A stretch of DNA of 39,991 bases from Clostridia bacterium. Lineage in GTDB: Bacteria > Bacillota > Clostridia > Christensenellales > Aristaeellaceae. Both the position numbers and the translations under genes were made by a program. Shown in pieces: positions 24,629-39,650 of this stretch. The number at the start of each line of letters is the position of its first letter. Position 1 is the stretch's first letter. The stretch lies in the NCBI GenBank assembly GCA_017532155.1, contig JAFXJP010000040.1:1-39991 (forward strand), written 5' to 3'. The notes under the pieces were generated by a model. That model ran no database searches. It was not told the origin of the DNA and saw only the letters and a program-made list of their open reading frames with translations.

Positions 24629-24704
24629 CGGCAGTTTATAAGAGAAAGACGGAGAATCTCAGGGACTTGAGCAAGCTCGGTTCCGTGATCTTCTCCGTCT
24701 TTTT
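24629..24704 (+). terminator. Family I terminator element, copy B
   Basis: CGGCAG (24629-24634) precedes a hairpin with outer arms AAAGACGGAGAA (24645-24656) and TTCTCCGTCTTT (24691-24702). The core is AATCTCAGGGACTTGAGC-AA-GCTCGGTTCCGTGATCTT and a T run follows. It lies in sense orientation 47 bp after the DUF4340 stop. Additional hairpins GTTTGC/GCAAAC (24707-24722) and CCTGCGGAG/CTCCGCAGG (24722-24743) follow before the convergent TetR gene. Confidence 0.85.
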
Positions 24705-24738
24705 CAGTTTGCTAAAGCAAACCTGCGGAGCAAACTCC

Positions 24739-24750
24739 GCAGGCGGCGTT
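24739..24750. repeat. 12-bp repeat GCAGGCGGCGTT, copy 3
   Basis: Identical to 9741-9752 and 19277-19288; it abuts the end of the TetR gene. Confidence 0.5.
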
Positions 24751-24752
24751 TT

Positions 24753-25436
24753 TTATACCAGTCTAAGCCTTGATGCTACGCGTTCCATCATGGGAATTGC
24801 TTCTTCCAGTTTTACAATCTCCACGCTGCCGTAGTCCATATCCAGCGTGCGCTCCCAGAGGAAGCGTGCGGAGGAGACGACCTCCGTCAAGGGATCGGCC
24901 ACGCTCACGCCTGTGCGAACGCACTCGAGGATGACCTCGCACATTTCATCGTAGAAGGCTGTGAACACCTCAAATACCAGGCTTTCAAGGCCGCGGCGCG
25001 CCACATGCGCTGCGCCTGTTTCGTTGAGGATCATCATCAGATCGCCCAGTTCCTGCTTGAAGGTATCGCGCATGGCAGAGCGCAGCACATTTTCCATCAC
25101 TGCCGCTTCTTCGCGGGCGCGCAGGCGCAGCATGAGAAAGACAAAGTCCTCCTCCTCTGGCCTGAACCACTGCGTGTGGTACAGCAAACTGTTCATTTTT
25201 TCCCGCGTGCTTGTCACGCGCGTTTTTTTATACGCGTCAAAGTTTCGTTGCACCTTGCTTTCGCAGATGGCTATGAGCACGGAAAGCTTGCTGTCAAAGT
25301 AATGATAGAAGCTGCCCTTGCTGCACTTAAGCTCCTGGAGGATGTCATCCACCGTCGTTTCCAGGTAGCCCTTCTGGCAGAAAAGCTTTTCGGAAGCTTC
25401 TATGATGGCCTGCTTGCGCACTTCACCCTTGCGCAT
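24753..25436 (-). CDS. TetR-family transcriptional regulator
   Basis: A 227-aa regulator. Residues 8-55 form the TetR helix-turn-helix: AIIEASEKLFCQKGYLETTV, then DDILQELKCSKGSFYHYFDSK. The C-terminal ligand domain is not assignable. AAAGGAGG precedes the ATG. It begins 13 bp after the VanW gene on the same strand, so the two are co-transcribed; it may control its own operon or the adjacent exporter. Inverted repeats that could be its operator are not obvious near the VanW promoter. Confidence 0.92.
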   Translation of the reverse strand: MRKGEVRKQAIIEASEKLFCQKGYLETTVDDILQELKCSKGSFYHYFDSKLSVLIAICESKVQRNFDAYKKTRVTSTREKMNSLLYHTQWFRPEEEDFVFLMLRLRAREEAAVMENVLRSAMRDTFKQELGDLMMILNETGAAHVARRGLESLVFEVFTAFYDEMCEVILECVRTGVSVADPLTEVVSSARFLWERTLDMDYGSVEIVKLEEAIPMMERVASRLRLV

Positions 25437-25449
25437 AAAACGCCCTCCT

Positions 25450-27228
25450 TTAATAATTGTATTCGATCTTCTGCGTATATGTGCGGTAGGTGGATTTGCG
25501 CACCAGCTCGCGGCCAGTTTCCACGCCGTTCATATAATACACGCGGTAGGTATTGTACACATAGCCCGGACGCGCCTTGCGGATTTCCTTGGTGGTGCCG
25601 TATTCCAGATTTTCGTTGAATACCATTTCCACTTCCGTGGGCGCGGGCGTGGTGGAGACCAGCTCTGTTGCAATGCCGATGGTAATGCCCGGATTGAAGG
25701 CCACGCCGTAAATCTCTACCACACAGGTACAAACGCGGTTGAGATTGCTTCCCTTGAGATAGGCCACGATATAAATGGGATGCCCGGAGGTATTCTTAAA
25801 TTTGAAATCTATGCTCTGATCGATATTCTGATAGCTTTGCCAGTCCACTGTCGCGTCGCGGCCGGGTTCCACATAGGTGCTTGGCCAGGCGTGCGGATAG
25901 CGGCTGACAATCTCCATATTGGCGAGCATTGCGGTATTAAACAGCGTAGAGGACACCTGGCAGATGCCGCCGCCCGTGCCTTCTTCATTGGCGCCGGAGA
26001 CGATCACGCCCGCCGAAAGATAGCCTTTTTCCACCGTGCGGCGGCCCGTCGCCTTGTTGAAGGAGAAGGTTTCACCGTTCTTTACTTCCATGGTGATGGC
26101 GTCGCACGCCAGGCGGATGTTGATATTGCGGTTGTAGTCCGCCAGCGTCTGCGTGGAATACGTCGCCACCAGACCAAAACTCTTGCTCAGCGTCGCCACG
26201 GTGGTGGCAGGCGTTACAGCCGTGGTATTGAGCGCAATGGCGCTGTTATAATTGCGCGCGTCCATCTGCGCGACAATGGCGCTATAAATCTGCTCTGCGT
26301 CAATATACGCGCCTACCTGCTCGGGATTGAATTTAAACGTGCGGGCAGAGGAATCAAAGGAATGCACTGAGGCGTCCCTGGGCTCCACATATACGCGGGA
26401 GGCGATGGTCTCCGCCAGCCTGCGCACGGTTGCCTTGTCATAGGTGATTTCGGTATACAGGTACGCGCCCTGCTGATTGACCTGCTGTGCATGCTGATAG
26501 CGCGCTTCAAAGGGCGTTATGTCGCTGCCCAGCGTGGAGAGCGTGCCCTGACGGCCGATAGTAAACGCCTCCTTGAGCACCGCCTCGGTATTACGCTTGA
26601 GCGGCAGCTCGTTTTGCGTAATGCGCCAGGTTTTGCCATCCACCGTCACCGCCAGCGAATAGCTTTCGTCGCTGTAATCGGCATACTGCTGCACCGCCAG
26701 CCGCGCCTCGGCCATCGTCATGCCGCCCAGGTGCACGCCGTCCACATGCACGCCGGCATAAAAGCGATCGTTGGACATGGCGGCAAGCTTTTGCTGAAAG
26801 ATGGGATAATAGGTGGAGTGCAGCGTAGACACATAAAATCCTGCGCCCGCCAGAATGGCAATGCACAAAATGATCACCAGCAGCCATTTGCCCTCGCCCG
26901 AGCGGCTGCGGCGCGGCGGCTGCGAGGATTCATAGTTATTTCCCCGCGGCTGGGGCGGATAGGGCTGCTGATAATACGAATTGGACGGATAGCTCTGCTG
27001 GGGATAGGATTGCTGCTGATAAGGCTGCTGATAGTAATTGTTTTGCTGATAATTCTGCCGCGGCGGCTGATAGGGCGCCTGCTGCCAGGTATTCTCCTGC
27101 GGATAGGCAGCGCGCTGCGGCTGCTCATATTCCGGATAAGAAGGATACGCCTGCCCCTGCGTATCTTCAGGATACTGGGCGCGGTTGCGCTGCGAGCGGC
27201 GCTGACGGGGCTGAGGGGACGACTGCAC
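25450..27228 (-). CDS. VanW-family protein with G5-like C-terminus
   Basis: Membrane-anchored envelope protein of 592 aa. In order: a Gln/Tyr/Pro-rich cytosolic N-terminus (about 20-100, repeats of QQPY and QQSYP); one transmembrane helix (115-133); YoaR-type peptidoglycan-binding-like domains (about 160-320); VanW domain (about 345-480) with GGGICQVSSTLFNTAML; and a G5-like end (about 530-592). The GTG at 27228 is chosen because GGAGG (27237-27241) is eight bases away; the in-frame GTG at 27235-27237 lies inside that ribosome binding site. VanW is named from vanB-type glycopeptide resistance clusters, but this context gives no reason to infer resistance. Confidence 0.9.
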   Translation of the reverse strand: MQSSPQPRQRRSQRNRAQYPEDTQGQAYPSYPEYEQPQRAAYPQENTWQQAPYQPPRQNYQQNNYYQQPYQQQSYPQQSYPSNSYYQQPYPPQPRGNNYESSQPPRRSRSGEGKWLLVIILCIAILAGAGFYVSTLHSTYYPIFQQKLAAMSNDRFYAGVHVDGVHLGGMTMAEARLAVQQYADYSDESYSLAVTVDGKTWRITQNELPLKRNTEAVLKEAFTIGRQGTLSTLGSDITPFEARYQHAQQVNQQGAYLYTEITYDKATVRRLAETIASRVYVEPRDASVHSFDSSARTFKFNPEQVGAYIDAEQIYSAIVAQMDARNYNSAIALNTTAVTPATTVATLSKSFGLVATYSTQTLADYNRNINIRLACDAITMEVKNGETFSFNKATGRRTVEKGYLSAGVIVSGANEEGTGGGICQVSSTLFNTAMLANMEIVSRYPHAWPSTYVEPGRDATVDWQSYQNIDQSIDFKFKNTSGHPIYIVAYLKGSNLNRVCTCVVEIYGVAFNPGITIGIATELVSTTPAPTEVEMVFNENLEYGTTKEIRKARPGYVYNTYRVYYMNGVETGRELVRKSTYRTYTQKIEYNY

Positions 27229-27271
27229 GGGCGGCACCTCCTTTACAAAAAGTGTACTTTAGTATAAATAT

Positions 27272-27299
27272 ATTATACAGATATTGTTTTATGTGTCAA
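27272..27299 (-). promoter_or_regulatory. Promoter of the VanW-TetR operon
   Basis: On the minus strand, perfect TTGACA (27294-27299), 16 bp, perfect TATAAT (27272-27277). Confidence 0.8.
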
Positions 27300-27376
27300 T
27301 CGGGCGTATCATAACAGATTGTAAATTCCATCTGCCAATATCCGGCAGGAAACGCAAAAAAAGCGTTGAACTTCCA

Positions 27377-27404
27377 TTGATTTACCCGTGATACGGTATA
27401 CAAT
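27377..27404 (+). promoter_or_regulatory. Promoter of the two-component system operon
   Basis: TTGATT (27377-27382), 16 bp, TACAAT (27399-27404), about 30 bp upstream of the response regulator start. Confidence 0.6.
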
Positions 27405-27434
27405 ATAAAGAGAATCCGCAAAGGAGGCTGTGCC

Positions 27435-28109
27435 ATGTTCAAAGTGCTGGTGGTCGAGGATGACCGCGAACTGCGCGAGCTTTTCAGCCGTGTGCTTACG
27501 CGCCATGGCTATAAAACGCTGGAAGCCGGCAACGGTGAAGAGGCTCTGGAGGTCCTTGACAGCGAATATATTGACGTCATCATTTCTGATATCATGATGC
27601 CCGTGATGGACGGATACGAATTGGTCCGTTCCCTGCGCGAGGCGGATATCAACATCCCCGTGCTGATGATCACCGCCAAGGACGCCTTCTCCGATATGGA
27701 AAGAGGCTTCCTTTCGGGCACGGATGATTATATGGTCAAGCCCGTCAACGTCAACGAAATGGTTTTGCGCGTGGGGGCGCTTTTGCGCCGGGCGCAGATG
27801 ATTTCTGAACGAAGAGAGGTGCTGGGCGCTACAACGCTGGAATATGACTCGCTCTCCGTCATCTGCGGCGACAGCCGCACGGCGCTGCCGCAAAAGGAAT
27901 TTATGCTCCTGTATAAAATGGCTGCTGCGCCGGGCCGCATCTTTACCCGCCAGCAGATCATGGACGATATCTGGGGCATGGACAGCGAGACTGACCCGCA
28001 CACGGTTGACGTGCATATCGGCAGGCTTCGCGAGCGCTTCCGCGACAACCCGGATTTTGAGATCGTCACTATGCGCGGTCTTGGCTACAAGGTGGTGAAA
28101 AAGACGTGA
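27435..28109 (+). CDS. OmpR/PhoB-family response regulator
   Basis: A 224-aa DNA-binding regulator. Receiver domain: acidic pocket D9/D10, phosphoacceptor D52 (IISDIMMPVMDG), T80 and K102. Winged-helix output domain (about 130-224): LPQKEFMLLYKMAAAPGRIFTRQQIMDDIWG, then DPHTVDVHIGRLRERF and GLGYKVV. AAAGGAGG lies upstream. Its stop overlaps the kinase GTG start (GTGA), so regulator and kinase are made together. Confidence 0.96.
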   Translation: MFKVLVVEDDRELRELFSRVLTRHGYKTLEAGNGEEALEVLDSEYIDVIISDIMMPVMDGYELVRSLREADINIPVLMITAKDAFSDMERGFLSGTDDYMVKPVNVNEMVLRVGALLRRAQMISERREVLGATTLEYDSLSVICGDSRTALPQKEFMLLYKMAAAPGRIFTRQQIMDDIWGMDSETDPHTVDVHIGRLRERFRDNPDFEIVTMRGLGYKVVKKT

Positions 28110-29146
28110 ACCTTAAAAAGATCAAATGGCGGCCGAGCGTCAAACTGTATTTTGTATTGTACACGTTCGTGTTTCTGTGCGTCGTATCCGGCGTTTCGGC
28201 GATCGTAACAGAATTGATTCAGCTGCTCACGCGCAAGTATTCCTTTGAGCTGCCCAGCGTTGTGTGGATGCTGATTATCTCCATCCCGCTTGGCACGGCG
28301 CTCAACACCCTGACCAGCCGTTTGTTCACCACGCCCATCACACGCCTCAACCGCGCCATGCGCACCGTGGCCAAGGGCGATTTCACCGTCCAGCTGACTG
28401 ATCCCGGCTTTATCAGCGAAATGCGCGAATCCTACGAAAATTTCAACGTCATGACCCGTGCGCTGGGCACTACCGAAACGCTGCAGACCGATTTTATCAG
28501 CAACGTATCCCATGAGTTTAAAACGCCCATCAACGCCATTGAGGGCTATGCCATGCTGCTGCAGGACGATACGCAGTCCAATGAGGAAAAACAGCAGTGC
28601 GTGGATAAAATTCTCTTAAACACCCGCCGCCTGAGCGAGCTGGTCAGCAACATTCTGCTGTTGTCCAAGGTGGATAATCAGGGCATTCAGGCCGCCGGCA
28701 AGCCCTACCGGCTGGATGAGCAGCTCCGGCAGGCGGTGATGATGCTTGAGCACAAATGGACTGAAAAGAACATAGAATTGGACGTCGATCTGGATCCTGC
28801 CGTGTATGTGGGCAATGAATCCATGATGATGCATGTGTGGACCAATCTGATTGACAACGCCATCAAATTTGATCCCTACGGCGGTCAGCTGATGCTCAGG
28901 CTGCACAAAGCCAATCATCAATTGATCGTCACCGTGCAGGACAACGGCCCGGGCATTCCTGCCGACAAGCAGGCCCAGGTCTTTGATCGCTTCTATCAGG
29001 CGGACGGCTCGCACCGCGGCGAGGGCAACGGCCTGGGGCTGGCGCTGGTCAAGACCATCCTCACCAACTGCGGAGGCGAGATCACGCTGTCCAGCTATGA
29101 AAACACGGGCTGCCGCTTCACCGTCACGCTGCCCGCGCAGGATTAA
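28106..29146 (+). CDS. Sensor histidine kinase
   Basis: A 346-aa membrane kinase with a GTG start at 28106 inside the regulator's stop. Two helices (about 14-40 and 52-68) enclose only a short loop, so there is almost no extracellular sensor domain. A HAMP-like linker (70-118) follows, then HisKA with phosphorylated H136 (ISNVSHEFKTPINAIEGYAM). The ATPase domain has N-box NLIDNAIKF (247-255), G1 DNGPGIP (279-285) and G2 GNGLGLALVK. The tiny sensor loop suggests sensing within the membrane or through a partner, as in BceS-like and VanS-like intramembrane kinases. Confidence 0.95.
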   Translation: MNLKKIKWRPSVKLYFVLYTFVFLCVVSGVSAIVTELIQLLTRKYSFELPSVVWMLIISIPLGTALNTLTSRLFTTPITRLNRAMRTVAKGDFTVQLTDPGFISEMRESYENFNVMTRALGTTETLQTDFISNVSHEFKTPINAIEGYAMLLQDDTQSNEEKQQCVDKILLNTRRLSELVSNILLLSKVDNQGIQAAGKPYRLDEQLRQAVMMLEHKWTEKNIELDVDLDPAVYVGNESMMMHVWTNLIDNAIKFDPYGGQLMLRLHKANHQLIVTVQDNGPGIPADKQAQVFDRFYQADGSHRGEGNGLGLALVKTILTNCGGEITLSSYENTGCRFTVTLPAQD

Positions 29147-29160
29147 AAGGAGCCTGTCTG

Positions 29161-29658
29161 ATGCACCCCATTTTCCGCTGCCTTCTCTATGTAGCAGCGA
29201 TTGGATTGCTTTCCAATCCCATCGCGTACTTTCTGCCGCGGCGCTGGTTTCACCCGGATCGCTTTCCCTTCCGCGCCTTCCGATGGGAAAAGAACGGCGC
29301 CGTTTATGAAAAAATCGGCATCCGCCGCTGGAAGGATAAGGTGATTGACCAGAGCCGTATCACGTCCTTCCTGGTCAAAAAAACCGTAACGCCGCGCATG
29401 ACTGCCCGGCAGGCCCAGCAATTGGTCATTGAAACCTGTGTGTCGGAAGCCGTGCACCTGGCCCTGGCACTGCTCAGCCTTTATTGCCTCAGGCTTTGGC
29501 CTGGCCCTGGCGGCGTCATTTTTACGGCCCTGTTCATCGTATTTGGGCAATTGATGTACGCCGTCATTCAGCGCTATAACCGTCCGCGCCTGGCGGATGT
29601 TGCCAAGCGGCTGCAAAAGCGCGAACAGAGAATCAAAGAAAAAGAACTCACTGAATAA
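29161..29658 (+). CDS. CrtO-like membrane acyltransferase family protein
   Basis: A 165-aa membrane protein. The segments FRWEKNGAVYEKIGIRRWKD (40-59), VTPRMTARQ and ETCVSEAVHL (91-100) match the family annotated as glycosyl-4,4'-diaponeurosporenoate acyltransferase (CrtO in staphyloxanthin synthesis). No other carotenoid gene is visible here, so the true substrate is probably another lipid-linked or glycosylated compound. Hydrophobic helices are at about 5-25 and 98-135, with a basic tail. It lies 14 bp after the kinase, likely the same operon. The terminator stem overlaps its last codons. Confidence 0.75.
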   Translation: MHPIFRCLLYVAAIGLLSNPIAYFLPRRWFHPDRFPFRAFRWEKNGAVYEKIGIRRWKDKVIDQSRITSFLVKKTVTPRMTARQAQQLVIETCVSEAVHLALALLSLYCLRLWPGPGGVIFTALFIVFGQLMYAVIQRYNRPRLADVAKRLQKREQRIKEKELTE

Positions 29659-29674
29659 AACAGTGAGTTTTTTT
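29645..29674 (+). terminator. Terminator overlapping the stop codon of the CrtO-like gene
   Basis: Stem AACTCACTG/CAGTGAGTT (29645-29653 and 29661-29669), seven-base loop containing the TAA stop, then a T run to 29674. Confidence 0.88.
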
Positions 29675-29755
29675 CATATAAACCCCGGAAAAAATCTGCA
29701 TTTTGCTTTGCCAATTGCGCCCTGTTCAACATTTCTTCAAAATTCTCACGATCAA

Positions 29756-29784
29756 TTGACATTCGCCCTTTTCTTCGCTATACT
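29756..29784 (+). promoter_or_regulatory. Strong promoter of the LexA-box operon
   Basis: Perfect TTGACA (29756-29761), 17 bp, TATACT (29779-29784). Transcription would start around 29791, inside the LexA box. Confidence 0.85.
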
Positions 29785-29790
29785 TTTATA

Positions 29791-29804: not shown

Positions 29805-29835
29805 CTTAAAATGTTCGCATAAGGAGGCGAAGATC

Positions 29836-30063: not shown

Positions 30064-30065
30064 GG

Positions 30066-30524: not shown

Positions 30525-30530
30525 CATCCT

Positions 30531-30567: not shown

Positions 30568-30572
30568 GGAGC

Positions 30573-31859
30573 ATGAAAAAGCAATCCGTTGGCAAACAGG
30601 CCGCTATTCTCACCTGCTTCAATGCGCTCACGCGCGCGCTGGGCTTTCTGCTGCGCATTGTGCTCAGCCGCCTGATGGGCGCTGAAGCCGTGGGTGTGAT
30701 GGAGCTTTCCCACAGCGCGCATATGCTGTCCATCACGCCCGTCACGGCGGGGCTGCCACTGGCTGTCAGCCGCATGACGGCGCGTGATAAGAATGATCTT
30801 GCCCTGCGCGCAGGGCGGCAGCTGGTGTGGAAAATTTCGCTGTGCCTCTTGCCCGTGTGGCTGTTGCTTTCGCCCGTCATGGCGTATCTCATGCGTGATC
30901 TGCGCGTGCTGCCGTCGCTGCTGCTCTTTGCGCCGTGCATCCCTGTTTTAGGGCTTTCGGCCATTTACAACGGCTACTGCTACGGCAGCGGCAATGTATT
31001 TCCGCCCGCGCTGAGCGAAATTCTGGAGCAATTGCTGCGCTTTGCGCTCTCAGCGCTGCTGCTGTTATCGCTGCCGGGATTGACTGTTGCCGGCCGCGCG
31101 GCTGTGCCGGCGCTGGCAACCGCCGCAGCCGAGGCAGCGGGGCTTACGCTGGTGATCTTTCTGGTGCGCCGCCGTCCGGCAGGCGCTGCGCAGCTTTCTC
31201 CTGCCCAGCGGGAAATATTGCAGCTGTCGCTGCCGCTGATCCTGTCGCGGCTGCTTACGACCATGCTGCGCACGGCCTCCGGCGCGCTGATCCCGCTGCG
31301 GCTCATGGTCAGCGGTCTTGACCGCACAGCGGCGATGGAGGCCTTTGGCATGCTGCAGGGCATGGTGATGCCGCTGCTTTTTCTGCCGGGCATTCTGACC
31401 GGCGCGCTGGGCACGGTGGGCACATCGGCCATTGCCGAGCGCTCGGGCTATGCCCGGCGGCGCATGGCCATTGTACTGTTTCTCTCTGCGCTGCTATGCG
31501 GCTGTGCAGGCACGGCCCTGCTGCACAGCGGCTCCGCATTGATTTCCAAGCATCTGTACGCCCTGCCTGCGTTATCGCCGCTGCTTCGCGCTGCCTCGCC
31601 GCTGACGCTCCTGTTTGCGCTGCAGCATGCCGTAAACGGCGTGATGAGCGGGCTTGGCCTGCAAAAGCAATTGCTTCTGCCTGCGCTTTGTTCGGCTGTT
31701 ATATCGCTTATTTGTCTTTACCTCTGGGCGGGGGATCCGGCGCTGCGCATCCTTGGCGCCATCCGCGCGATGGTGGTTTCGCAGACGCTGGGGGTGCTGT
31801 GGGGATTGTGGCTGGTATGGCGAAGAACAAAAGAAGGAACGTTCAAGAGGACGCTCTAA
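30573..31859 (+). CDS. SpoVB/MurJ-like polysaccharide flippase
   Basis: A 428-aa integral membrane protein with about 12 helices of the MOP/MviN superfamily. The start QAAILTCFNALTRALGFLLR and LSRLMGAEAVGVMELSHSAH are typical of SpoVB-type proteins, which move lipid-linked cell-wall or polysaccharide precursors across the membrane and in spore formers are needed for cortex formation. It is shorter than typical SpoVB (about 520 aa) but both ends look intact. It lies 48 bp after the DUF1492-like gene and could share the LexA-controlled transcript. Confidence 0.85.
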   Translation: MKKQSVGKQAAILTCFNALTRALGFLLRIVLSRLMGAEAVGVMELSHSAHMLSITPVTAGLPLAVSRMTARDKNDLALRAGRQLVWKISLCLLPVWLLLSPVMAYLMRDLRVLPSLLLFAPCIPVLGLSAIYNGYCYGSGNVFPPALSEILEQLLRFALSALLLLSLPGLTVAGRAAVPALATAAAEAAGLTLVIFLVRRRPAGAAQLSPAQREILQLSLPLILSRLLTTMLRTASGALIPLRLMVSGLDRTAAMEAFGMLQGMVMPLLFLPGILTGALGTVGTSAIAERSGYARRRMAIVLFLSALLCGCAGTALLHSGSALISKHLYALPALSPLLRAASPLTLLFALQHAVNGVMSGLGLQKQLLLPALCSAVISLICLYLWAGDPALRILGAIRAMVVSQTLGVLWGLWLVWRRTKEGTFKRTL

Positions 31860-31871
31860 GACCGTGTGTTT

Positions 31872-31946
31872 TGGCAGACATTGCAAAAAAAGGAGAGAAT
31901 CTCAGGGATTCGAGCAAGCTCGATCCGCTGATCTTCTCTCCTTTTT
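31872..31946 (+). terminator. Family I terminator element, copy A
   Basis: TGGCAG (31872-31877), then arms AAAAGGAGAGAA (31888-31899) and TTCTCTCCTTTT (31934-31945). The core is AATCTCAGGGATTCGAGC-AA-GCTCGATCCGCTGATCTT, with a 2x2 TC/TC internal loop and a bulged G. It lies 12 bp after the flippase stop in sense orientation and is symmetrical enough to stop the convergent FAD gene too. Confidence 0.88.
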
Positions 31947-31964
31947 ATGGCGCATTTCACGGGC

Positions 31965-33287
31965 TCATTCTTTGTCGTACAGCTCTGCGCCGTTCTTTTC
32001 AAGGACTGCCTGCACATCGCGCACGGATACTTCGCGCGGCGCAACGCCAGCCCTGGCGCTTAGCGCCGCTGCCGTGCCCGCTGCCTGACCGGTGGCCATG
32101 CACACCGCCATCACGCGATAGGACGCATGCGCGCGGTGCGTGCCCGAAATGCAGCGGCCCGAGAGCAGAAGATTATCCACCTTCTGCGGCAGCAGCGCGC
32201 GGTAAGGAATATCATAGGGCGTGGCAGGCTGAGACTTGCCCTCCGCCTGACCGCCGCCGGTGGGGTTATGAATATCGATGAGGAACCATGCGCGATGCAC
32301 GACCACGTCCTCGTGGCGCGCGCCCTTTTCCACATCCCAGTCAGAGATCGTGTAATCGCCGTGGAAGCGGCGCGTTTCGCGCACGCCCAGCGTGGCCGCC
32401 GAGCTCTTCACGCGGCAGTTTTCATAGCCGGGCACGTATTTTTTGAGGAAAGCAATGATCTGCGGAATCTGTCCGCGCAGCTTTTCCTCTGCCAGCGTAG
32501 CGCCCTCAAGCGTCAGCGTATCATAGCCGTTGGCCTGGGTGGCGTTGACGTTGCGCTCGCCGGGATAGAACGTTTTGTGCAGGCGCACGATGGACACGTT
32601 TTCAGGCAGAATGCCCTTGGCGTGCAGATCCTTGCACATCTGGCTGTAGCCCGTTCCATCGGGCAGCTTTACGGGATCGGAGCCGCCGTTGCAGTAAATC
32701 GCTACGGAATCGTCCACATTTTCTATTGTAAATTCAATGGTAACAGGCTGGCAGCGGCCGTCGCTGTCGCGGCCCATGGAGAAGGGCGCGCCGGCGAGGA
32801 AGGCCAGCATGCCGTCGCCCGTGGAATCCACAAAGCACTTGGCGCGATAGGCGCTCAGGCCGGTAGGCGTGTTGACCACGACCGCGGTGATCTTGCCATC
32901 CTCCATGATCGCGTCGCACAGCGGGGCATTCAGCAAGAACTCCGCGCCGCTTTCGCGCACAAAGCGCATCAGACGGCCCTTGCCCTCTTCGGGATCCAGG
33001 TTCACTTCATCGCCAATATAGGATTTGCCCATGGGCACGTCCTCATGGCCCACGCGGAAAAGCTGCACAAGCTCGTCATACATCGTGCCCCTGGCCACGC
33101 CGCCGAGGATGGGATTGACATGCCCCACCGTCAGGTTGCCGCCCAGCACGCCATTTTTATCCAAAAGCAGCGTCTTTGCGCCTTCGCGCGCCGCAGCCAC
33201 TGCTGCGCACACGCCGGCAGGGCCGCCGCCGACCACGATTACATCATATTCGCCCGCTACAGGAATCTGCTTCTGATACTGAATCAT
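31965..33287 (-). CDS. FAD-dependent oxidoreductase (FAD_oxidored-type), 440 aa
   Basis: Cytosolic flavoprotein. The FAD-binding Rossmann motif VIVVGGGPAGVCAAVAAARE is near residue 16, followed by VLGGNLTVGHVNPILGG, FVDSTGDGMLAFLAGAPFSMG, and the late LLLSGRCISGTHRAHASYRVMAV block that closes the cofactor site. It belongs to the same broad family as the protein at 9756-11510 but lacks the extra C-terminal domain. ATG at 33287 is preferred because GGAGG is nine bases away; ATG at 33314 has no ribosome binding site. It is divergent from a TIM-barrel isomerase with closely spaced promoters, suggesting shared control. Confidence 0.9.
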   Translation of the reverse strand: MIQYQKQIPVAGEYDVIVVGGGPAGVCAAVAAAREGAKTLLLDKNGVLGGNLTVGHVNPILGGVARGTMYDELVQLFRVGHEDVPMGKSYIGDEVNLDPEEGKGRLMRFVRESGAEFLLNAPLCDAIMEDGKITAVVVNTPTGLSAYRAKCFVDSTGDGMLAFLAGAPFSMGRDSDGRCQPVTIEFTIENVDDSVAIYCNGGSDPVKLPDGTGYSQMCKDLHAKGILPENVSIVRLHKTFYPGERNVNATQANGYDTLTLEGATLAEEKLRGQIPQIIAFLKKYVPGYENCRVKSSAATLGVRETRRFHGDYTISDWDVEKGARHEDVVVHRAWFLIDIHNPTGGGQAEGKSQPATPYDIPYRALLPQKVDNLLLSGRCISGTHRAHASYRVMAVCMATGQAAGTAAALSARAGVAPREVSVRDVQAVLEKNGAELYDKE

Positions 33288-34248: not shown

Positions 34249-34249
34249 A

Positions 34250-34274
34250 AAAGGCGTCCGTACAGGACGCCTTT
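34250..34274. terminator. Terminator hairpin, duplicated copy 1
   Basis: Arms AAAGGCGTCC (34250-34259) and GGACGCCTTT (34265-34274) directly follow the isomerase stop. A 24-bp stretch is identical to 34470-34493. The tail is T-poor on the plus strand and T-rich on the minus strand. Confidence 0.75.
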
Positions 34275-34438
34275 CGCTCCTTCGTCCGCTATAGCGAACA
34301 AAGGAGCGGGACATCATTTTCCTGTGAGGCTCCGCCTCACGGCCGGAAAATGATATAGGAAGCAGCTTTCAGCTGCTCCTCGCACCGCACATGTCGCTGC
34401 TGCGGAATAAAAATGAAGGGGCTGGCCGCCCCTTCATT
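34275..34438 (+). repeat. Multi-hairpin intergenic element, family II, copy 2
   Basis: Four hairpins. H1: CGCTCCTT/AAGGAGCG (34275-34282, 34301-34308). H2: ATCATTTTCC/GGAAAATGAT (34313-34322, 34345-34354) with inner GTGAGGC/GCCTCAC. H3: AGGAAGCAGCT/AGCTGCTCCT (34357-34367, 34371-34380). H4: AATGAAGGGGC/GCCCCTTCATT (34412-34422, 34428-34438). It has the same order and linkers as the copy at 14316-14476, in sense orientation after the isomerase gene. No gene is visible in 34249-34507. Confidence 0.75.
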
Positions 34439-34469
34439 GCATCCCCGCCATTTTGTTTGGAGATGGATT

Positions 34470-34493
34470 AAAGGCGTCCGTACAGGACGCCTT
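34470..34493. terminator. Terminator hairpin, duplicated copy 2
   Basis: Identical in 24 bp to 34250-34273 and only 15 bp beyond the stop of the convergent XRE gene. The two copies bracket the family II element. Confidence 0.7.
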
Positions 34494-34507
34494 CTTTTGT
34501 TATTCTT

Positions 34508-34855: not shown

Positions 34856-34900
34856 AACTCCTCCAAGCACATAGGTGCATAAAATACAAAATCTTTTAAT

Positions 34901-34929
34901 ATTATATGTAAAATTCTTCTTTTCGTCAA
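34901..34929 (-). promoter_or_regulatory. Promoter of the XRE regulator gene
   Basis: On the minus strand, TTGACG (34924-34929), 17 bp, perfect TATAAT (34901-34906). Confidence 0.75.
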
Positions 34930-34936
34930 CAGTAAA

Positions 34937-35056
34937 TTCGATTTAACTTCGATTTCTCTACCATTTTTTACAAAATAATCACATTCTCCATATATTTTCA
35001 TATATGGAACCATTGACAAATAGAGATATCTAACCAGTCTAAGAAACCGATTTCTT
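34937..35056. promoter_or_regulatory. AT-rich regulatory region with repeats between XRE and mgtE
   Basis: Direct repeats TTCGATTT at 34937-34944 and 34948-34955 are spaced one helical turn apart, just upstream of the XRE promoter's -35. Inverted repeats CCATATAT/ATATATGG (34988-34995, 35000-35007) and AAGAAA/TTTCTT (35041-35046, 35051-35056) follow. I see no convincing gene between 34871 and 35182. Confidence 0.45.
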
Positions 35057-35099
35057 CATTTCTCCAGTCAAAAATAATATTGCGCATGTTTTTTTATCG

Positions 35100-35128
35100 T
35101 TGACTTTATACGGCTGTATTTATATAAT
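35100..35128 (+). promoter_or_regulatory. Promoter of the mgtE transcript
   Basis: TTGACT (35100-35105), 17 bp, perfect TATAAT (35123-35128). Transcription from about 35135 gives a leader of roughly 178 nt. Confidence 0.85.
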
Positions 35129-35182
35129 GAAATAAATTGGGCAAAATATTTATCGCCCATGTATGATCAAAGGAGGTTCGCT

Positions 35183-35257
35183 ATGGAAGCTGGCAGTATC
35201 CCTTTACCCCCTGACACAGCCCACATACGCTGTCTGCTCCCGGCGAACATTGCCTGA
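35183..35257 (+). CDS. Candidate leader peptide upstream of mgtE (24 aa)
   Basis: A short ORF starting MEAGSIPLPPDTAH and ending ANIA, preceded by a perfect AAAGGAGG (35169-35176) six bases from the ATG. It is far too short for a structural protein and lies wholly in the mgtE leader. Enterobacterial mgtA is controlled by the proline- and acid-containing leader peptide MgtL, whose translation falters at low magnesium; the acidic/proline start here (E2, P7, P9, P10, D11) is analogous, though not clearly homologous. The ORF overlaps the left arm of a helix that competes with the helix covering the mgtE ribosome binding site. Confidence 0.6.
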   Translation: MEAGSIPLPPDTAHIRCLLPANIA

Positions 35258-35310
35258 CGAGTAACAGCCTGCGCGACTGTGTCTTTCCAACAAACCAAAG
35301 GAGGAAAGAC
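35213..35310 (+). promoter_or_regulatory. Mutually exclusive RNA helices in the mgtE leader
   Basis: Helix 1 pairs GACACAG (35213-35219) with CTGTGTC (35277-35283). Helix 2 pairs GTCTTTCC (35281-35288) with GGAAAGAC (35303-35310) and includes the last two bases of the mgtE ribosome binding site AAAGGAGG (35297-35304). Both use 35281-35283, so only one can form. A local ACAGC/GCTGT hairpin (35216-35220, 35229-35233) also competes with helix 1. No M-box-like sequence is apparent. Confidence 0.6.
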
Positions 35311-35312
35311 TC

Positions 35313-36662
35313 ATGTCTCAGATTGATACCGCCTTCGGCACGGCTATTGCCCGGCTGTGGGAGGATAAAAAGTACAATACCCTTCGTGATGTGCTCAGCA
35401 CGCTGCAGCCGCCTCAGGTTGTTGCCGTGCTGCTTTTGCTGCCCGAAACGGCGCTGGCGCCGCTGTTCCGCCTGCTGCCCAAGGAGCTGGCTGCCGAGAC
35501 CTTCGTAGAGATGGAAAGCGACCAGCAGGAAAAGCTGATCCGCTCCTTCTCCGATACCGAGCTGAGAAGCGTGCTGGATGAATTGTATGTGGATGACGCG
35601 GTAGACCTGGTGGAAGAAATGCCCGCTAACGTCGTCAAGCGCATCCTCGCACAGGCTGATCCTGAATTGCGCCGCAGCATCAACGAGCTGCTGCAGTATC
35701 CCGAGGATTCTGCCGGCTCCATCATGACCACGGAGTTTGTCTCCCTGCGCCCGCATATGACGGCCGCTGACGCGCTTTCCTCCATCCGCCGCACCGGCAT
35801 GGATAAGGAAACCGTCAACACCTGCTATGTCATGGATGACCGCCGGCATCTGATTGGCGTTGTCACGCTGCGGCAGATCGTCATGGCGAAGGAAGACGAT
35901 ACCATGGAAACGCTCATGGACCGCAACGTGATTTCCGTCACCACCCTGGAGGATCAGGAAACCGTGGCGCACATGTTCGCCCTCTACGACTATTTTGTCA
36001 TTCCCGTCGTCGATAAGGAAAACCGTCTGGTGGGCATTGTCACCGTTGACGACGCCATCGACGTCATGGAAGAAGAAACCACCGAGGACGTCAGCAAGAT
36101 GGCGGCTATGACGCCCAGCGACAAGCCTTATCTGAAAACAACCATCCTGGAATTGTTCAAGAGCCGCATTCCCTGGCTGCTTTTGCTGATGCTTTCCTCC
36201 ACATTCACCGGCATGATCATCACGCACTTTGAGGGTGTGCTGGCCGCCTCCATCGCGCTCACCGCCGCCATTCCCATGCTGATGGGCACGGGCGGTAACA
36301 GCGGCAGCCAGTCCTCCGTTACCGTTATCCGTTCGCTGTCGCTGGAGGAAGTGCAGTTCTCGGATATGTTCCGCATCTGGTGGAAGGAAATCCGCGTGGC
36401 AGTGCTGTGCGGCCTGACGCTGGCAGTAGCCGAGTTTTTCAAGCTCCTTCTGTTTGATCGCATCGCTCCGCTGGTGGCCGCAACGATCTGCATCACGCTC
36501 TTTGCCACGGTCTGCCTGGCCAAGTTCGTTGGCTGCACCATGCCGCTGCTGGCCAAGAAGCTGGGCTTTGACCCGGCGGTAATGGCAAGCCCCTTCATCA
36601 CCACCATCGTGGACGCCATGTCGCTGCTTATCTTCTGCGGCTGCGCGGGCATGATGCTGTAA
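35313..36662 (+). CDS. mgtE: Magnesium transporter MgtE
   Basis: A 449-aa magnesium channel. Cytosolic MgtE N domain (about 20-130, superhelical, LVEEMPANVVKRIL), two CBS domains (about 135-255) beginning YPEDSAGSIMTTEFVSL, then a connecting helix and about five membrane helices (285-449). The pore-region signature is GTGGNSGSQSSVTVIRSL. The N and CBS domains close the channel when cytosolic magnesium is high. AAAGGAGG precedes the ATG by eight bases. Expression is probably controlled by the structured leader and short ORF upstream. Confidence 0.97.
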   Translation: MSQIDTAFGTAIARLWEDKKYNTLRDVLSTLQPPQVVAVLLLLPETALAPLFRLLPKELAAETFVEMESDQQEKLIRSFSDTELRSVLDELYVDDAVDLVEEMPANVVKRILAQADPELRRSINELLQYPEDSAGSIMTTEFVSLRPHMTAADALSSIRRTGMDKETVNTCYVMDDRRHLIGVVTLRQIVMAKEDDTMETLMDRNVISVTTLEDQETVAHMFALYDYFVIPVVDKENRLVGIVTVDDAIDVMEEETTEDVSKMAAMTPSDKPYLKTTILELFKSRIPWLLLLMLSSTFTGMIITHFEGVLAASIALTAAIPMLMGTGGNSGSQSSVTVIRSLSLEEVQFSDMFRIWWKEIRVAVLCGLTLAVAEFFKLLLFDRIAPLVAATICITLFATVCLAKFVGCTMPLLAKKLGFDPAVMASPFITTIVDAMSLLIFCGCAGMML

Positions 36663-36671
36663 AATAACGTA

Positions 36672-36713
36672 TAAAAAAAGCCTGTGTTGAATATTTCACA
36701 ACGCAGGTTTTTT
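36672..36713. terminator. Bidirectional terminator between mgtE and the AI-2E-family gene
   Basis: Stem CCTGTGTTG/CAACGCAGG (36681-36689, 36699-36707) with one mismatch, flanked by an A run (36673-36679) and six T (36708-36713). Confidence 0.85.
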
Positions 36714-36715
36714 GT

Positions 36716-37918
36716 TTATTTTTCTACGCTCTTGGATTGTTTCGAAAAGAGCTTGCTTTTTACGTCAATCAGCCAGGTTTTAAGTGATTGTTTGTCTGTC
36801 GGCGTACCCAGCCTTCCGGCGTCGGCGTCCAGCACCACGCGGCAGATATTGGCTACCACCGGGCCGGCAATCAGGCCCAGCACGCCGATCATCTGGAAGC
36901 CGGCAAACATGCTCATCATGGTTACCAGCGGATAGAGGCCAAGCTGCTTGCCGACGATGCGCGGCTCGATGGTCTGGCGGACGATCAGGCTGGTCAGGTA
37001 TACAATAAACAGCCCCAGCGCCGAGGAATAATGCCCCAGGATCAGATCGATGATCGCCCAGGTGTTGATCACCAGGCCGGCGCCTACCACGGGCAGCGCA
37101 TCAGCCACGCCGATGATCAGGCCCATCAGCAACGCATAGCGCTTGCCAATGATGATCAGGCCGAAGATGACCACCACCATCAGCACAAAGGAGATAAACA
37201 GCTGTGCGCGGATCTGCCCGAAAATGGCAAAGATGACGCCGTTCTTGATCAGACCGAACTGCTTGACCACATTGCCCGGGAAGGTGCGTTTGAAGTAATT
37301 GGCAATGCGCTCGCGGTCGTAGCTCATGTAGAAGGTGCACATGATCGTCAGCACGATGGTGAGGATCACATACGGCAGCGAGGTGGCGGTGGAAATCACC
37401 GTTGTCACCGTGCCCCAGGTGACTTTGCCGGTCAGGTTGGCGGCCACGCTCAGTACGTTCTGATATACGGTGTTCAGCAGGTTGCGGACAATATCCAGGA
37501 AGTTTTCCGGCAACAGATGGCTGTATTCGTTGTAAAGGTCGGTGATCCACACAGTCACCGTGTCGTAAGCCGTCTTGGCCATATTGGGCAGGCCGGCCAC
37601 AAAGCTGATGGCTTCGGTGATCACACGGTTGGCAAAGATGATTACAATCGCTGTGATCATGCCAAAGAGCACGAACATGCACAAAAGCGTTGCCAGCGAG
37701 CGCGCCGCCTTGAACCGGCGGAAAAGCTTGCGCAGCACGCGGGCCACAGGCTCCATCAGCGAGGCGAAGAAGAACGCCAGCACTGTCGGCCAGCAATAGG
37801 GAAATACTTTGGCGGCAATTAAACAGCCCAGCACTGTGATGCCAATCAGCATCAATCGGCGCGGTACATCGTTATACGCCTTGTTCCAGGCGGATAGCTT
37901 TTCTAAAAATGTATTCAT
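36716..37918 (-). CDS. AI-2E/PerM-family membrane transporter
   Basis: A 400-aa integral membrane protein of the UPF0118 family (AI-2E, PerM, YtvI). It has the usual layout: a helix pair near the N-terminus (LMLIGITVLGCLIAAKVFPY, then a second ending FFASLMEPV), a middle amphipathic region, and a C-terminal block of helices with ADALPVVGAGLVINTWAIID and RIVGKQLGLYPLVTMMSMFAG. Members were linked to AI-2 export and to ion or cation antiport; the substrate is not predictable. ATG at 37918 follows AGGAGG by five bases; an upstream ATG at 37936 does not. Confidence 0.92.
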   Translation of the reverse strand: MNTFLEKLSAWNKAYNDVPRRLMLIGITVLGCLIAAKVFPYCWPTVLAFFFASLMEPVARVLRKLFRRFKAARSLATLLCMFVLFGMITAIVIIFANRVITEAISFVAGLPNMAKTAYDTVTVWITDLYNEYSHLLPENFLDIVRNLLNTVYQNVLSVAANLTGKVTWGTVTTVISTATSLPYVILTIVLTIMCTFYMSYDRERIANYFKRTFPGNVVKQFGLIKNGVIFAIFGQIRAQLFISFVLMVVVIFGLIIIGKRYALLMGLIIGVADALPVVGAGLVINTWAIIDLILGHYSSALGLFIVYLTSLIVRQTIEPRIVGKQLGLYPLVTMMSMFAGFQMIGVLGLIAGPVVANICRVVLDADAGRLGTPTDKQSLKTWLIDVKSKLFSKQSKSVEK

Positions 37919-37963
37919 ATAGACCTCCTGGCCCAACTGGAAGAAAAATGACTGGATATATTT

Positions 37964-37992
37964 ATTGTATCAGAAGGAAACAAAAAACGCAA
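37964..37992 (-). promoter_or_regulatory. Promoter of the AI-2E-family gene
   Basis: On the minus strand, TTGCGT (37987-37992), 17 bp, TACAAT (37964-37969). Confidence 0.6.
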
Positions 37993-38040
37993 CTGATCTC
38001 AGGGGATAAACATGTAAACATAATGAATACAGCAGATTAT

Positions 38041-38069
38041 TTGACACAACGCGGCATCGCGGGTATACT
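38041..38069 (+). promoter_or_regulatory. Promoter of asnA
   Basis: Perfect TTGACA (38041-38046), 17 bp, TATACT (38064-38069), 34 bp upstream of the start codon. The leader is too short for a T-box. Confidence 0.8.
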
Positions 38070-38102
38070 AAATAAATACCATGCACGAGGAGGAGGAAAC
38101 GC

Positions 38103-39110
38103 ATGAGCCGCGTTTTTGTCCCTGAAAATTATTCCTCTGCGCTGTCGCTGTATGACACGCAGGAGGCTATTTCGCTGATCAAAAAGACATTTGAAAAATT
38201 GCTGTGCAACGCGCTCAATTTAAAGCGCGTGTCTGCGCCTTTGTTTGTAGAGGGCGCAAGCGGCCTTAATGACGACCTTTCGGGCGTTGAGCGCCCGGTT
38301 GATTTCACTGTGCGTGAAACGGGCACCAAGGCGCAGGTGGTGCATTCTCTGGCCAAGTGGAAGCGCCAGGCGCTGCATCAGTACGGCTTCCCGGTGGGCG
38401 AGGGCTTGTATACCGATATGAACGCCATCCGCCGCGATGAGGATCTGGATAACCTGCACTCCATTTATGTGGACCAGTGGGACTGGGAAAAGGTGATTAC
38501 CGAGGAGGAGCGCACGCTCGATACCCTCAAGGACGCCATGCAGCGCATCGTTACCGCCGTGTGCGGCACGCTGGATTTTATCAAGTGGCGCTACCCGAAC
38601 CTGCCTGTCACGCTCTCGCGCGATATCGTATTTGTTACCACGCAGGAATTGGAGGATATGTATCCCGACAAGACCGGCAAGGAGCGCGAAAATCTTTTCC
38701 TCAAGGAGCATAAGACCGTAGGCATTTTGCAGATCGGCGGCAAGCTGCGCTCCGGCAAGCCGCATGACGGCCGTGCGCCCGACTACGACGACTGGCAGCT
38801 CAACGGCGATATCATGTTCTACAATGAAGTGCTGGACTGCGCTTTTGAGCTAAGCAGCATGGGCATTCGCGTGTCGCCCGAGTCGCTGCGCTGTCAGCTG
38901 GAGGAATCCGGCAAGCAGGAGCGCGCTGCGCTTCCCTTCCACAAGAAGCTCCTGAACGGCGAATTGCCCTATACTATGGGCGGCGGCGTGGGCCAGAGCC
39001 GCATGTGCATGCTGCTGTTGGGCAAGGCGCATATCGGCGAGGTGCAGTCCTCCTTCTGGGATCAGGAAACGCACAGGATCTGCGAAGAAAACAATATTGT
39101 GCTGCTGTAA
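38103..39110 (+). CDS. asnA: Aspartate-ammonia ligase (asparagine synthetase A)
   Basis: A 335-aa class II aminoacyl-tRNA-synthetase-like enzyme that makes asparagine from aspartate, ammonia and ATP. Conserved segments: VSAPLFVEGASGLNDDLSGV, VHSLAKWKRQAL, GEGLYTDMNAIRRDED, SIYVDQWDWEKVI, and the C-terminal GGGVGQSRMCMLLLGKAHIG with the motif 3 arginine. The length equals typical AsnA. A GAGGAGG ribosome binding site lies upstream of the ATG. It is monocistronic, with its own promoter and a family I terminator element downstream. Confidence 0.97.
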   Translation: MSRVFVPENYSSALSLYDTQEAISLIKKTFEKLLCNALNLKRVSAPLFVEGASGLNDDLSGVERPVDFTVRETGTKAQVVHSLAKWKRQALHQYGFPVGEGLYTDMNAIRRDEDLDNLHSIYVDQWDWEKVITEEERTLDTLKDAMQRIVTAVCGTLDFIKWRYPNLPVTLSRDIVFVTTQELEDMYPDKTGKERENLFLKEHKTVGILQIGGKLRSGKPHDGRAPDYDDWQLNGDIMFYNEVLDCAFELSSMGIRVSPESLRCQLEESGKQERAALPFHKKLLNGELPYTMGGGVGQSRMCMLLLGKAHIGEVQSSFWDQETHRICEENNIVLL

Positions 39111-39190
39111 GAGGGACGTTCGAGGGACGGCTTTTGTGTCAAAAGCCTCCCTCGAGCTCCCTCGAAAACCACTCTGTGGTTGGCTTGTTA

Positions 39191-39263
39191 TGGCAGGCTA
39201 TACGAAAAAAGATCTGAAATCGAATGTACGAGCAAGCTCGTTCCTCGGTTTCAGATCTTTTTT
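39191..39263 (+). terminator. Family I terminator element, copy D (divergent)
   Basis: TGGCAG (39191-39196), arms AAAAAAGATCTGAAA (39205-39219) and TTTCAGATCTTTTTT (39249-39263), and the conserved CGAGCAAGCTCG apex. The inner core is diverged from copies A-C. It lies in sense orientation 80 bp after asnA. Confidence 0.85.
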
Positions 39264-39392
39264 CTTGCCCGTTTCACGGGCGCGATGGCTGCGCCATCGG
39301 CCTGCCGCGTTGTTGTGTGTTTGCGCCCGCGGGGGTATCGCCGTTTTTCCTGCAGGAAAACGAGCGGGATTAGGATAACGCCGCTGCGGCGG

Positions 39393-39475
39393 CTACACCT
39401 CATCCGTCTCGCTGTGCTCGATACCTTCCCCTCAAGGGGCAGGTGGTGCGGTTTACCGCACCGGATGAGGTGTAG
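39393..39475. repeat. Palindromic intergenic repeat
   Basis: Perfect 14-bp inverted repeat CTACACCTCATCCG (39393-39406) and CGGATGAGGTGTAG (39462-39475), enclosing CCTTCCCCTCAAGGGG and GGTGCGGTTTACCGCACC hairpins. It shares modules with 9590-9745. Confidence 0.75.
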
Positions 39476-39574
39476 CGCTCCGCAGAGCGCGTTACCCCCA
39501 CCCCGCAGGCGATACCACACAATCAATCGGCAGGCCGATCACGCAAAGCGTGATCGCGCGCGTGGAACGCGCAG

Positions 39575-39650
39575 AAAAAGAGAGTGAAGATCAGCGAATC
39601 GAGCTTGCTCGATTTCCTGAGATTCACTCTCTTTTTCACACAGCCTGCCA
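39575..39650 (-). terminator. Family I terminator element, copy C
   Basis: On the minus strand: TGGCAG (39645-39650), arms AAAAAGAGAGTGAA (39623-39636) and TTCACTCTCTTTTT (39575-39588), core AATCTCAGGAAATCGAGC-AA-GCTCGATTCGCTGATCTT. It lies in sense orientation downstream of the peptidase gene ending at 39740. Confidence 0.87.

Follow-up and report, generated by a model that had tools for sequence, protein, structure and literature searches.

Hairpins at gene ends in the window

The window, the whole 39,991-nt stretch of Clostridia bacterium DNA that was analysed, contains four hairpins that the initial annotation had described as a family of terminators. Reading of the window sequence bears out their positions and strands, and gene calls and Pfam matches place the 3′-end of a same-strand gene immediately before each of them, as had been proposed. 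The hairpin itself is real, but it is not the whole element: it is one arm, hp1, of a larger, paired cloverleaf of about 118 nt, in which a stem P1 (GGCAG..CTGCC) and the hairpins hp1, hp2 and hp3 form a four-way junction. In terms of this unit, which occurs as class A and class B halves, the window contains the following genes and features:

23125..24582, + strand: DUF4340 gene; its end precedes the copy at 24630 (Pfam DUF4340, 3.2e-20)
24630..24748, + strand: class B half without a partner; hp1, hp2 and hp3 present, P1 nearly lost (R1 76.6 bits; fold)
30573..31859, + strand: Polysacc_synt gene; its end precedes the copy at 31872 (Pfam PF01943, 1.6e-17)
31872..31946, + strand: hp1 alone, terminator-like; rest of the cloverleaf absent (hairpin stability, model match, fold)
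38103..39110, + strand: asnA (aspartate-ammonia ligase), ending at the composite (Pfam AsnA, 7.9e-103)
39121..39154, + strand: outer hairpin module, located after the asnA stop codon and before the first cloverleaf (sequence read directly)
39192..39306, + strand: complete cloverleaf, class A half, P1 GGCAGGC/GCCTGCC, hp1 at about 39204-39264, then hp2 and hp3 (R1 82.2 bits; MFE a four-way junction, z -9.4)
39307..39528, no strand: central part of the composite, holding another inverted repeat with arms at 39392-39405 and 39463-39476 (GCTACACCTCATCC / GGATGAGGTGTAGC) (sequence read directly)
39529..39649, - strand: complete cloverleaf, class A half, facing the half at 39192..39306 (R1 85.9 bits; MFE a four-way junction, z -10.6)
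39688..39724, - strand: outer hairpin module adjoining the second cloverleaf (sequence read directly)
39740..39991, - strand: partial gene flanking the composite opposite asnA, running off the contig (open ORF and codon-usage gene call)

The cloverleafs at 39192-39306 (+) and 39529-39649 (-) form one head-to-head composite, flanked by asnA (+) on one side and by the gene at 39740 (-) on the other. Hairpins comparable to the outer module at 39121..39154 are also found upstream of other copies. At the solitary hp1, folding of 31872-32010 predicts a closing stem made with bases from within the neighboring gene.

Each of the four hairpins is far more stable than expected (z -4.6 to -5.7, matched by 0 of 200 dinucleotide shuffles), and the pattern GCAGN{10,25}AATCTCAGG has three matches in the window where 0.03 would be expected by chance. 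The third copy, which had been thought to keep the apex only, carries a different type of hp1, one that occurs commonly in the family. In a single window copy TGGCAG..TTGCA looked sigma-54-like by eye, a reading that was dropped.

Copy number, pairing and placement in the genome

Genome-wide, GGCAGN{15,45}GAGCAAGCTC has 50 matches, 25 on each strand, vs 0 for the reversed-pattern control, and CGAGCAAGCTCG occurs 55 times. Roughly 100 copies reach at least 56 bits among the matches listed, by a hand count that includes incomplete copies; the figure of 139 model matches in this genome was not used as a copy number. Our working set consists of the 81 copies that score at least 52 bits out of 151 matches, the other 70 scoring at most 41, and those of the 70 that were inspected either coincide in part with a true copy on the opposite strand or extend over hp1 alone. 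In 74 of the 81 copies the MFE structure consists of P1 and exactly three branches; of 405 dinucleotide shuffles 10 adopt this shape, and of 400 118-mers drawn at random from the genome 6 do. A T-run of at least 5 stands at the base of hp1 in 72 of 77 copies.

The copies are arranged in pairs. We find 34 head-to-head pairs and no tail-to-tail neighbors within 700 bp, and the pairs almost always join different classes (A/B 32, A/A 2, B/B 0), giving composites of about 500–700 bp. Modules have also been exchanged between copies: 27 copy pairs share the same hp1 (at least 95% identical), and hp3 type differs in 10 and hp2 type in 13 of these, in a comparison that covers 77 of the 81 copies and in which single-linkage classes chained hp1 types together. 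Such exchange is not free, since class B shows an association between hp1 and hp2 (z 4.8).

Placement relative to genes is not random, as it would be for the plain mobile palindrome that the initial annotation set against its own reading. In 286 kb of sequence, a non-random sample made up of the window plus three large contigs in which copies were already known, elements were found in 10 of 44 convergent spacers, 2 of 166 tandem spacers and 0 of 44 divergent spacers; the window site at 31873 is absent from this count by the overlap rule. In tandem spacers, as at L005 and L012, there is no gene that ends towards the second half of the composite. None of 62 GAGCAAGCTC sites falls within a called gene, in loci fetched around the CGAGCAAGCTCG occurrences, and a DNA uptake sequence acting as terminator, for which the motif should be scattered inside genes, was dropped.

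Spread across species and covariation of the stems

The cloverleaf architecture recurs in two genera of one family. The counts for other species given here for mismatches, similarity, placement and fold are taken from the best 55 of 81 rows of alignment A4, de-duplicated. Among 39 such copies with both neighbors called, 20 lie between convergent genes, 19 between co-directional genes and 0 between divergent genes, and in the second genus (g46) 10 of 14 copies lie between co-directional genes, so the convergent preference is weaker outside the genome studied here. In g46 the hp1 T-run is found in 1 of 13 copies while the cloverleaf persists, which rules out termination as the conserved function everywhere. 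Most class-wide matches were rejected as homologues: 16 of 391 genomes matched, the present one included, and most of the 15 that were folded form long single hairpins.

Copies resemble those of their own genome most, 80 of the 81 being nearest to another copy from the same genome, although this comparison was against only 10 copies from G007, the nearest carrier species. At five of the seven G007 sites with both flanks matched, the partner genes have been swapped, with the limits that synteny was read from draft metagenome assemblies and that one of the five (L399) rests on a match of only 69% identity. The class of a half stays with its gene in 11 of 14 comparisons between the two species.

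An invariant CGAGCAAGCTCG apex can no longer be regarded as the key feature, as variants are found in the copies of G004 and G008. Twenty-two copies from these genomes were found via hp2 with the tip unused; by hand count 19 of them keep the tip AGC-NN-GCT, four having AAGCAAGCTT, and the exceptions are L166 (CGCAAGCG), L173 (GAGTAAACTC) and L160, which has a shortened hp1. In a larger set the tip is kept in 118 of 129 copies, a figure that is biased upward because most copies were found by patterns or models that include the tip.

The proposal that changes in the stems are compensatory is well supported. In an alignment of 66 distinct copies (A5), all 48 of 48 pairs have changed on both sides, 92.9% of cells are paired, and the covariation score is 0.721 vs 0.192 when shuffled, with the reservation that the copies are related and that the alignments behind the counts were fitted to the model. 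The further proposal, of selection on RNA structure beyond simple termination, holds in one part only. The conservation does reach beyond termination, as the cloverleaf outlives the T-run, whereas selection at the level of RNA is not borne out, as G-T pairs show no clear excess in the genome studied here and modules are exchanged. In P1, hp2 and hp3 of this genome we counted 1487 Watson-Crick pairs, 24 GT and 20 AC, and in hp1 81 GT and 50 AC; G-T is thus not clearly commoner than A-C. The corresponding numbers in the other species are 854 Watson-Crick, 18 GT and 5 AC in P1, hp2 and hp3, which leans towards selection on RNA or on one strand, and 36 GT and 55 AC in hp1. The test has little power, ordinary terminators (55 at 163 gene ends) giving 9 GT and 4 AC. 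Exchange of whole hairpin modules between copies would alone yield paired changes, and template switching during DNA replication has been described as a route to compensatory change of several bases at once (PMC8794818).

In line with the initial annotation, which recognized no named RNA motif in the hairpins, comparison with Rfam gave 0 hits at threshold in the window and nothing near the gathering threshold for the composite; 14 other loci gave only an S10 leader and a SAM riboswitch, both outside the elements.

Known systems and the nature of the element

We assign the hairpins to a family of palindromic repeats interspersed in the genomes of gut Clostridia. In the paper collection that we searched, no title or opening of an abstract describes this element, and one of the closest parallels is with REPs and BIMEs, as these are presented in PMC2817692 and PMC3733652: palindromes of 20–40 bp, mostly tagged GTAG or CGTC, the GTAG ones tied to RAYTs, which are dispersed in many extragenic copies, have species-specific sequences, form inverted dimers and mosaics of modules, and in most families prefer heterodimers. 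The present element likewise consists of multi-copy extragenic palindromes in inverted dimers (34 head-to-head, 0 tail-to-tail). Its monomer differs in being a 118-nt four-way junction without a GTAG or CGTC tag, with ends that by eye read GGCAG/CTGCC or are otherwise paired. A REP with its RAYT was dropped as an identification, as the Y1_Tnp/RAYT family (PF01797) was not found in the genome studied here or in the carriers G000, G002, G003, G004, G006 and G007, all of them incomplete genomes; G008 has a match and G009 a weak one. Hairpins flanked by A and T between convergent genes have been proposed as bidirectional terminators in low-GC Firmicutes (PMC1590033), and hp1 resembles them in its strong stem, in the A-run on its 5′ side and the T-run on its 3′ side, and in its frequent position between convergent genes, but it is an arm of a larger unit, the shape of which persists in the second genus mostly without a T-run. 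The element would behave as a bidirectional terminator merged with a REP/BIME heterodimer, but judged by the features tested, namely size, tag and transposase, it does not qualify as a REP.

BOX, RUP, ERIC and NEMIS are modular intergenic repeats that are able to fold, and the element is similarly modular, intergenic and foldable; the likeness to them is by description only. Integrons have attC sites with the boxes RYYYAAC and GTTRRRY.

On balance we favor, with modest confidence, a REP/BIME-like dimeric palindromic repeat without RAYT that probably serves here as a two-way terminator, keeps its pairing largely by copying at the level of DNA, and would form a junction for recombination. Two halves of different class face each other in a composite that in this genome lies mostly between convergent genes, and hp1, to judge from its flanking A- and T-runs, probably stops transcription from either side in this species. 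The near-perfect pairing of the stems may largely stem from repair and copying of palindromes in DNA, by template switching and exchange between copies, with selection also helping to keep the structure. Homologous recombination between composites, A to A and B to B, could rearrange the chromosome and swap the genes that meet there.

A real though lesser chance goes to a mobile element that is non-autonomous, either of a MITE-like kind or from a new class resembling REPs, in which the inverted halves are ends recognized by a transposase, insertion occurs preferentially behind genes and the terminator effect is incidental. The high copy number, species-specific sequences, head-to-head ends and GGGGACGTT-like outer ends (by eye) would all fit, as would the variation of sites from one species to another: where the DUF4340, polysaccharide and FAD genes have their best matches in G007, plain hairpins stand at the gene ends instead, although the orthology of these matches, at 63–69% identity, is uncertain. 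Some copies are moreover closely alike, one pair in the genome studied here being 98.6% identical over 209 bp at a distance of 2.3 kb and some G007 cloverleafs 99% alike. On the other hand, among 47 units of this genome a single pair reaches at least 95% over 150 bp, which gives no sign of a recent burst. The PF01797 search described above found no candidate enzyme in most carriers, there was no phage or plasmid match, and the strict pattern occurred in 0 viral contigs (a looser one matched at least 120 stretches and was too loose to use). No target-site duplication was made out by eye at the orthologous sites, which were too diverged for alignment.

We consider it unlikely that the cloverleaf is a 3′-UTR element acting as RNA, whether by shielding the mRNA or by binding a protein at its apex. 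Strong covariation, placement behind genes, the tip retained while the stems change and the 18 GT against 5 AC in other species speak for it, but the hp1 T-run precedes hp2 and hp3, and most transcripts in this species should therefore end before the whole cloverleaf is made; the 24 GT against 20 AC and the tandem spacers where a second half follows no ending gene also count against it. An attC-like site, at which a recombinase reads the fold and reshuffles genes, seems very improbable. It would account for a shape kept at gene ends with little sequence, much as attC, which is associated with gene shuffling, is described in PMC2727003, and for partners being swapped with class kept; the element is, however, dispersed in head-to-head pairs rather than in a cassette array. 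R boxes were dropped as a feature, RYYYAAC lying at the 5′-end of 0 of 81 copies and GTTRRRY at the 3′-end of 1 of 81 (7 and 0 on the other strand), and ordinary homologous recombination may suffice, given repeats that reach 88% identity over about 630 bp. Equally hard to credit are ordinary intrinsic terminators made similar by a preference of the genome for one type of hairpin: A/T-flanked hairpins are indeed common at convergent gene ends of low-GC Firmicutes (PMC1590033), but this would leave hp2, hp3, P1, the A/B pairing rule and the g46 cloverleaf with its few T-runs unexplained.

Going beyond the preferred reading of a REP/BIME-like repeat, we speculate, as a long shot, that a cellular protein might read the folded cloverleaf in DNA, perhaps at the AGC-NN-GCT tip, that paired halves might act as junctions for exchanging gene neighborhoods, and that the sequence of the element would then be free to turn over. 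A structure of 48 pairs has been kept across two genera with every pair changed, in sequence that follows genes and fits none of the known RNA families. The discovery of RNAs by covariation has to reckon with such elements, since they could be mistaken for structured RNAs, and this one allows selection on shape to be separated from palindrome-preserving copying of DNA. Pairs of the element, finally, mark sites at which gene order differs between species.

A cloverleaf around the gene-end hairpins

The hairpin picked out by the initial annotation belongs to a larger element, a cloverleaf of about 118 nt in which a closing stem (P1) encloses that hairpin (hp1) and two more (hp2 and hp3). All four hairpins claimed in the window are present with their positions and strands as assigned, fold much more stably than shuffled sequences (z −4.6 to −5.7), and lie behind a gene 3′-end according to gene calls, ORFs and Pfam. 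The three window spacers that hold them are all convergent.

Window copies (R1 match and fold) and the genes before their hairpins
24630–24748: cloverleaf with P1 nearly gone; DUF4340 gene, stop 24582
31872–31946: hp1 without the rest of the cloverleaf; polysaccharide synthesis protein gene, stop 31859
39192–39306: complete cloverleaf; asnA, stop 39110
39529–39649: complete cloverleaf; gene at 39740, minus strand

In the source genome (2.02 Mb in 62 contigs, completeness 82.5%) the pattern GGCAGN{15,45}GAGCAAGCTC occurs 50 times, 25 on either strand; the reversed pattern, used as a control, does not occur. Two further hairpins follow 3′ of the T-run, and then a terminal complement of GGCAG. 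Copies fall into class A (GGCAGG) and class B (GGCAGT); the class B consensus fold (24 copies) is the full cloverleaf, and that of class A (24 copies) keeps P1, hp1 and hp2 with hp3 only partial. P1 was closed in the minimum free energy (MFE) fold of 29/30 copies, and P1 plus exactly three branches was the MFE fold of 74 of 81 own copies, against 10/405 dinucleotide shuffles and 6/400 random genomic 118-mers.

Head-to-head pairs and their neighbours

The 81 own copies occupy 47 loci, where 68 of them form 34 head-to-head pairs (composites) and 13 stand singly, some at contig ends; no tail-to-tail neighbours occurred within 700 bp. Class A meets class B in 32 composites and class A in two, including that of the window, and there is no B/B pair. 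Eight of nine composites in G007, another genome of the genus, are also A/B, the ninth having one unclassified half. Entire composites can be aligned for some 630 bp, with identity reaching 88%; the most alike of the 47 units share 98.6% over 209 bp and lie 2.3 kb apart, and a second pair shares 95.5% over 111 bp. Four loci (L008, L018, L026, L047) carry an extra module, ACAATTCGGCATTGTCG..TTCGTTCCC, full or partial, inserted within or beside the outer hairpin. Several contigs (C9, C30, C51, C53, C62) have an element a few hundred bases from their end, and the final 141 bases of the window (39851–39991) recur unchanged at the end of contig C49, an assembly join left unresolved.

Genes were called by codon usage, trained on window genes with Pfam support. 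In 254 spacers (286 kb: the window and three large contigs with known copies, the site at 31873 being dropped by an overlap rule), elements occupy 10/44 convergent, 2/166 tandem and 0/44 divergent spacers, with exactly two copies in 9 of the 12 and none within genes. The 39 copies from other species with both neighbours called divide into 20 convergent, 19 co-directional and none divergent; those of g46, a second genus of the family, into 4 convergent and 10 co-directional. From these counts together, avoidance of divergent spacers is general and the convergent preference less so. Another convergent spacer of the window (34249–34500) holds a different multi-hairpin repeat, with copies of about 110–140 bp, 86–90% identical, on contigs C30, C47, C27 and C11. 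The same 24-bp palindrome, AAAGGCGTCCGTACAGGACGCCTT, stands on both its sides and looks like either the duplicated flank of an insertion or a pair of similar terminators.

Partner genes change between species. The class A half stays with asnA in G007, where the partner gene differs and is mgtE. Among 21 G007 sites examined, seven had both flanks matched to genes beside own composites; partners were kept in two and swapped in five (identities 68–98%), one swap (L399) resting partly on a 69% match, perhaps to a paralogue. Beside matched genes, the class of half agreed in 11/14 cases. From the gene starting at 20961 to that starting at 39740 there are 17 spacers; read by hand, synteny with G007 breaks at 3/3 element spacers and 2/14 element-free ones, though some breaks could be assembly errors since the assemblies are drafts. 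In the asnA 3′ stretch of the other nine genus members, G004 gave a weak cloverleaf match (37 bits), G008 a palindrome alone, about 70 bp long (30 bits), and the remaining seven no cloverleaf match, G003 and G005 offering only about 100–230 bases. The G004 array (L136) has outer ends resembling the two halves of the G008 palindrome (L137), a pattern reminiscent of modules inserted at the centre of such a palindrome.

Termination, covariation and exchange of hairpins

A fully invariant apex was rejected, as the apex varies among copies. The tip AGC-NN-GCT is found in 118/129 distinct copies, a figure inflated by how copies were found, in the hp1 part of 76/81 own copies, and in 19/22 copies found without using it (hand count). 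The hp1 base carries a T-run of at least five in 72/77 own, 9/10 G007 and 14/14 G004/G008 copies, and less often in G003/G006/G002 (4/9) and g46 (1/13), where the cloverleaf is nevertheless retained (9/9 and 12/14). Judged from these sequences, hp1 likely terminates transcription in the source species, but termination is not the universal reason for the cloverleaf shape, because the T-run is often lost while the cloverleaf is kept.

The initial annotation read exchanged outer stems around a fixed core as selection on RNA. The covariation itself is real and strong: across 67 copies (66 distinct) of both genera, two-sided changes occur at 48/48 pairs, 92.9% of cells are paired, and the score is 0.721 against 0.192 for shuffled (0/500 reach it) and at most 0.135 for slid alignments, in an alignment that was fitted to the model and is thus biased towards the structure. 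The step from there to RNA selection is not supported. Hairpins are exchanged whole between own copies: among 77 copies, 27 pairs have hp1 at least 95% alike, and within these pairs the hp3 type is not the same in 10, nor is hp2 in 13. The association of hp1 with hp3 is about what shuffling gives (z −0.5 for class A and 1.7 for class B), as is that of hp2 with hp3 (2.2 and −0.5); hp1 and hp2 combine freely in class A (0.0) and not in class B (4.8). Such exchange alters both stem arms at once, as template switching is also reported to do (PMC8794818). The own genome has few GT and few AC mismatches, with no clear strand preference, and in other species they lean towards GT outside hp1 and AC inside it; the test has low power, since ordinary terminators give only 9 vs 4. 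The nearest relative of an own copy was another own copy in 80/81 cases, with 10 G007 sequences as the alternative; similarity is 0.90 among G004/G008 copies and 0.71 between these and own or G007 copies.

Distribution and identity

R1, a covariance model built from 25 class B copies, matches seven of 11 genus genomes and has no match in four. Among the matches listed, antisense included, the own genome has at least 139, G007 54, G004 23, G003 15, G008 13, G006 6 and G002 1. Under stricter filters, 19/250 family genomes match, six of the own genus and 13 of g46, these being 2 of 50 genera; fetched g46 copies have the same folding plan with different sequences (12/14 by a strict fold test). A second model, R2, matches 16/391 genomes class-wide, the own genome counted. 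Of the 15 matches fetched, most form one long hairpin whose tip is similar. The Clostridia MAGs RGIG7448, RUG12722 and RUG10934 are among the named records carrying such copies. A Clostridia record (L120, isolate Lapin-026) has two head-to-head pairs like those of g46, at 1766–2381 and 6113–6730. Loci from Lachnospiraceae and other Clostridia (L079, L082, L097, L114, L121, L123) place GAGCTTGCTC-tip hairpins within a closing stem, often GAGCCATGC..GCATGGCTC and enclosing hp1 and further hairpins by eye; 3/9 GAGCTTGCTC-tip loci inspected are without this fold. These loci make a wider superfamily possible.

The element reaches no Rfam family threshold, and no relatives were found in phages or plasmids, nor in viral contigs by a strict pattern. 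A profile search for the RAYT/Y1 transposase (PF01797) found none in G000 (the own genome), G002, G003, G004, G006 or G007; it is present in G008 and weak in G009. Tag, size and RAYT tests set the element apart from REP. We conclude that it is an interspersed palindromic repeat dimer of an apparently new variant, one that would work, by analogy, like a BIME heterodimer with a two-way terminator added.
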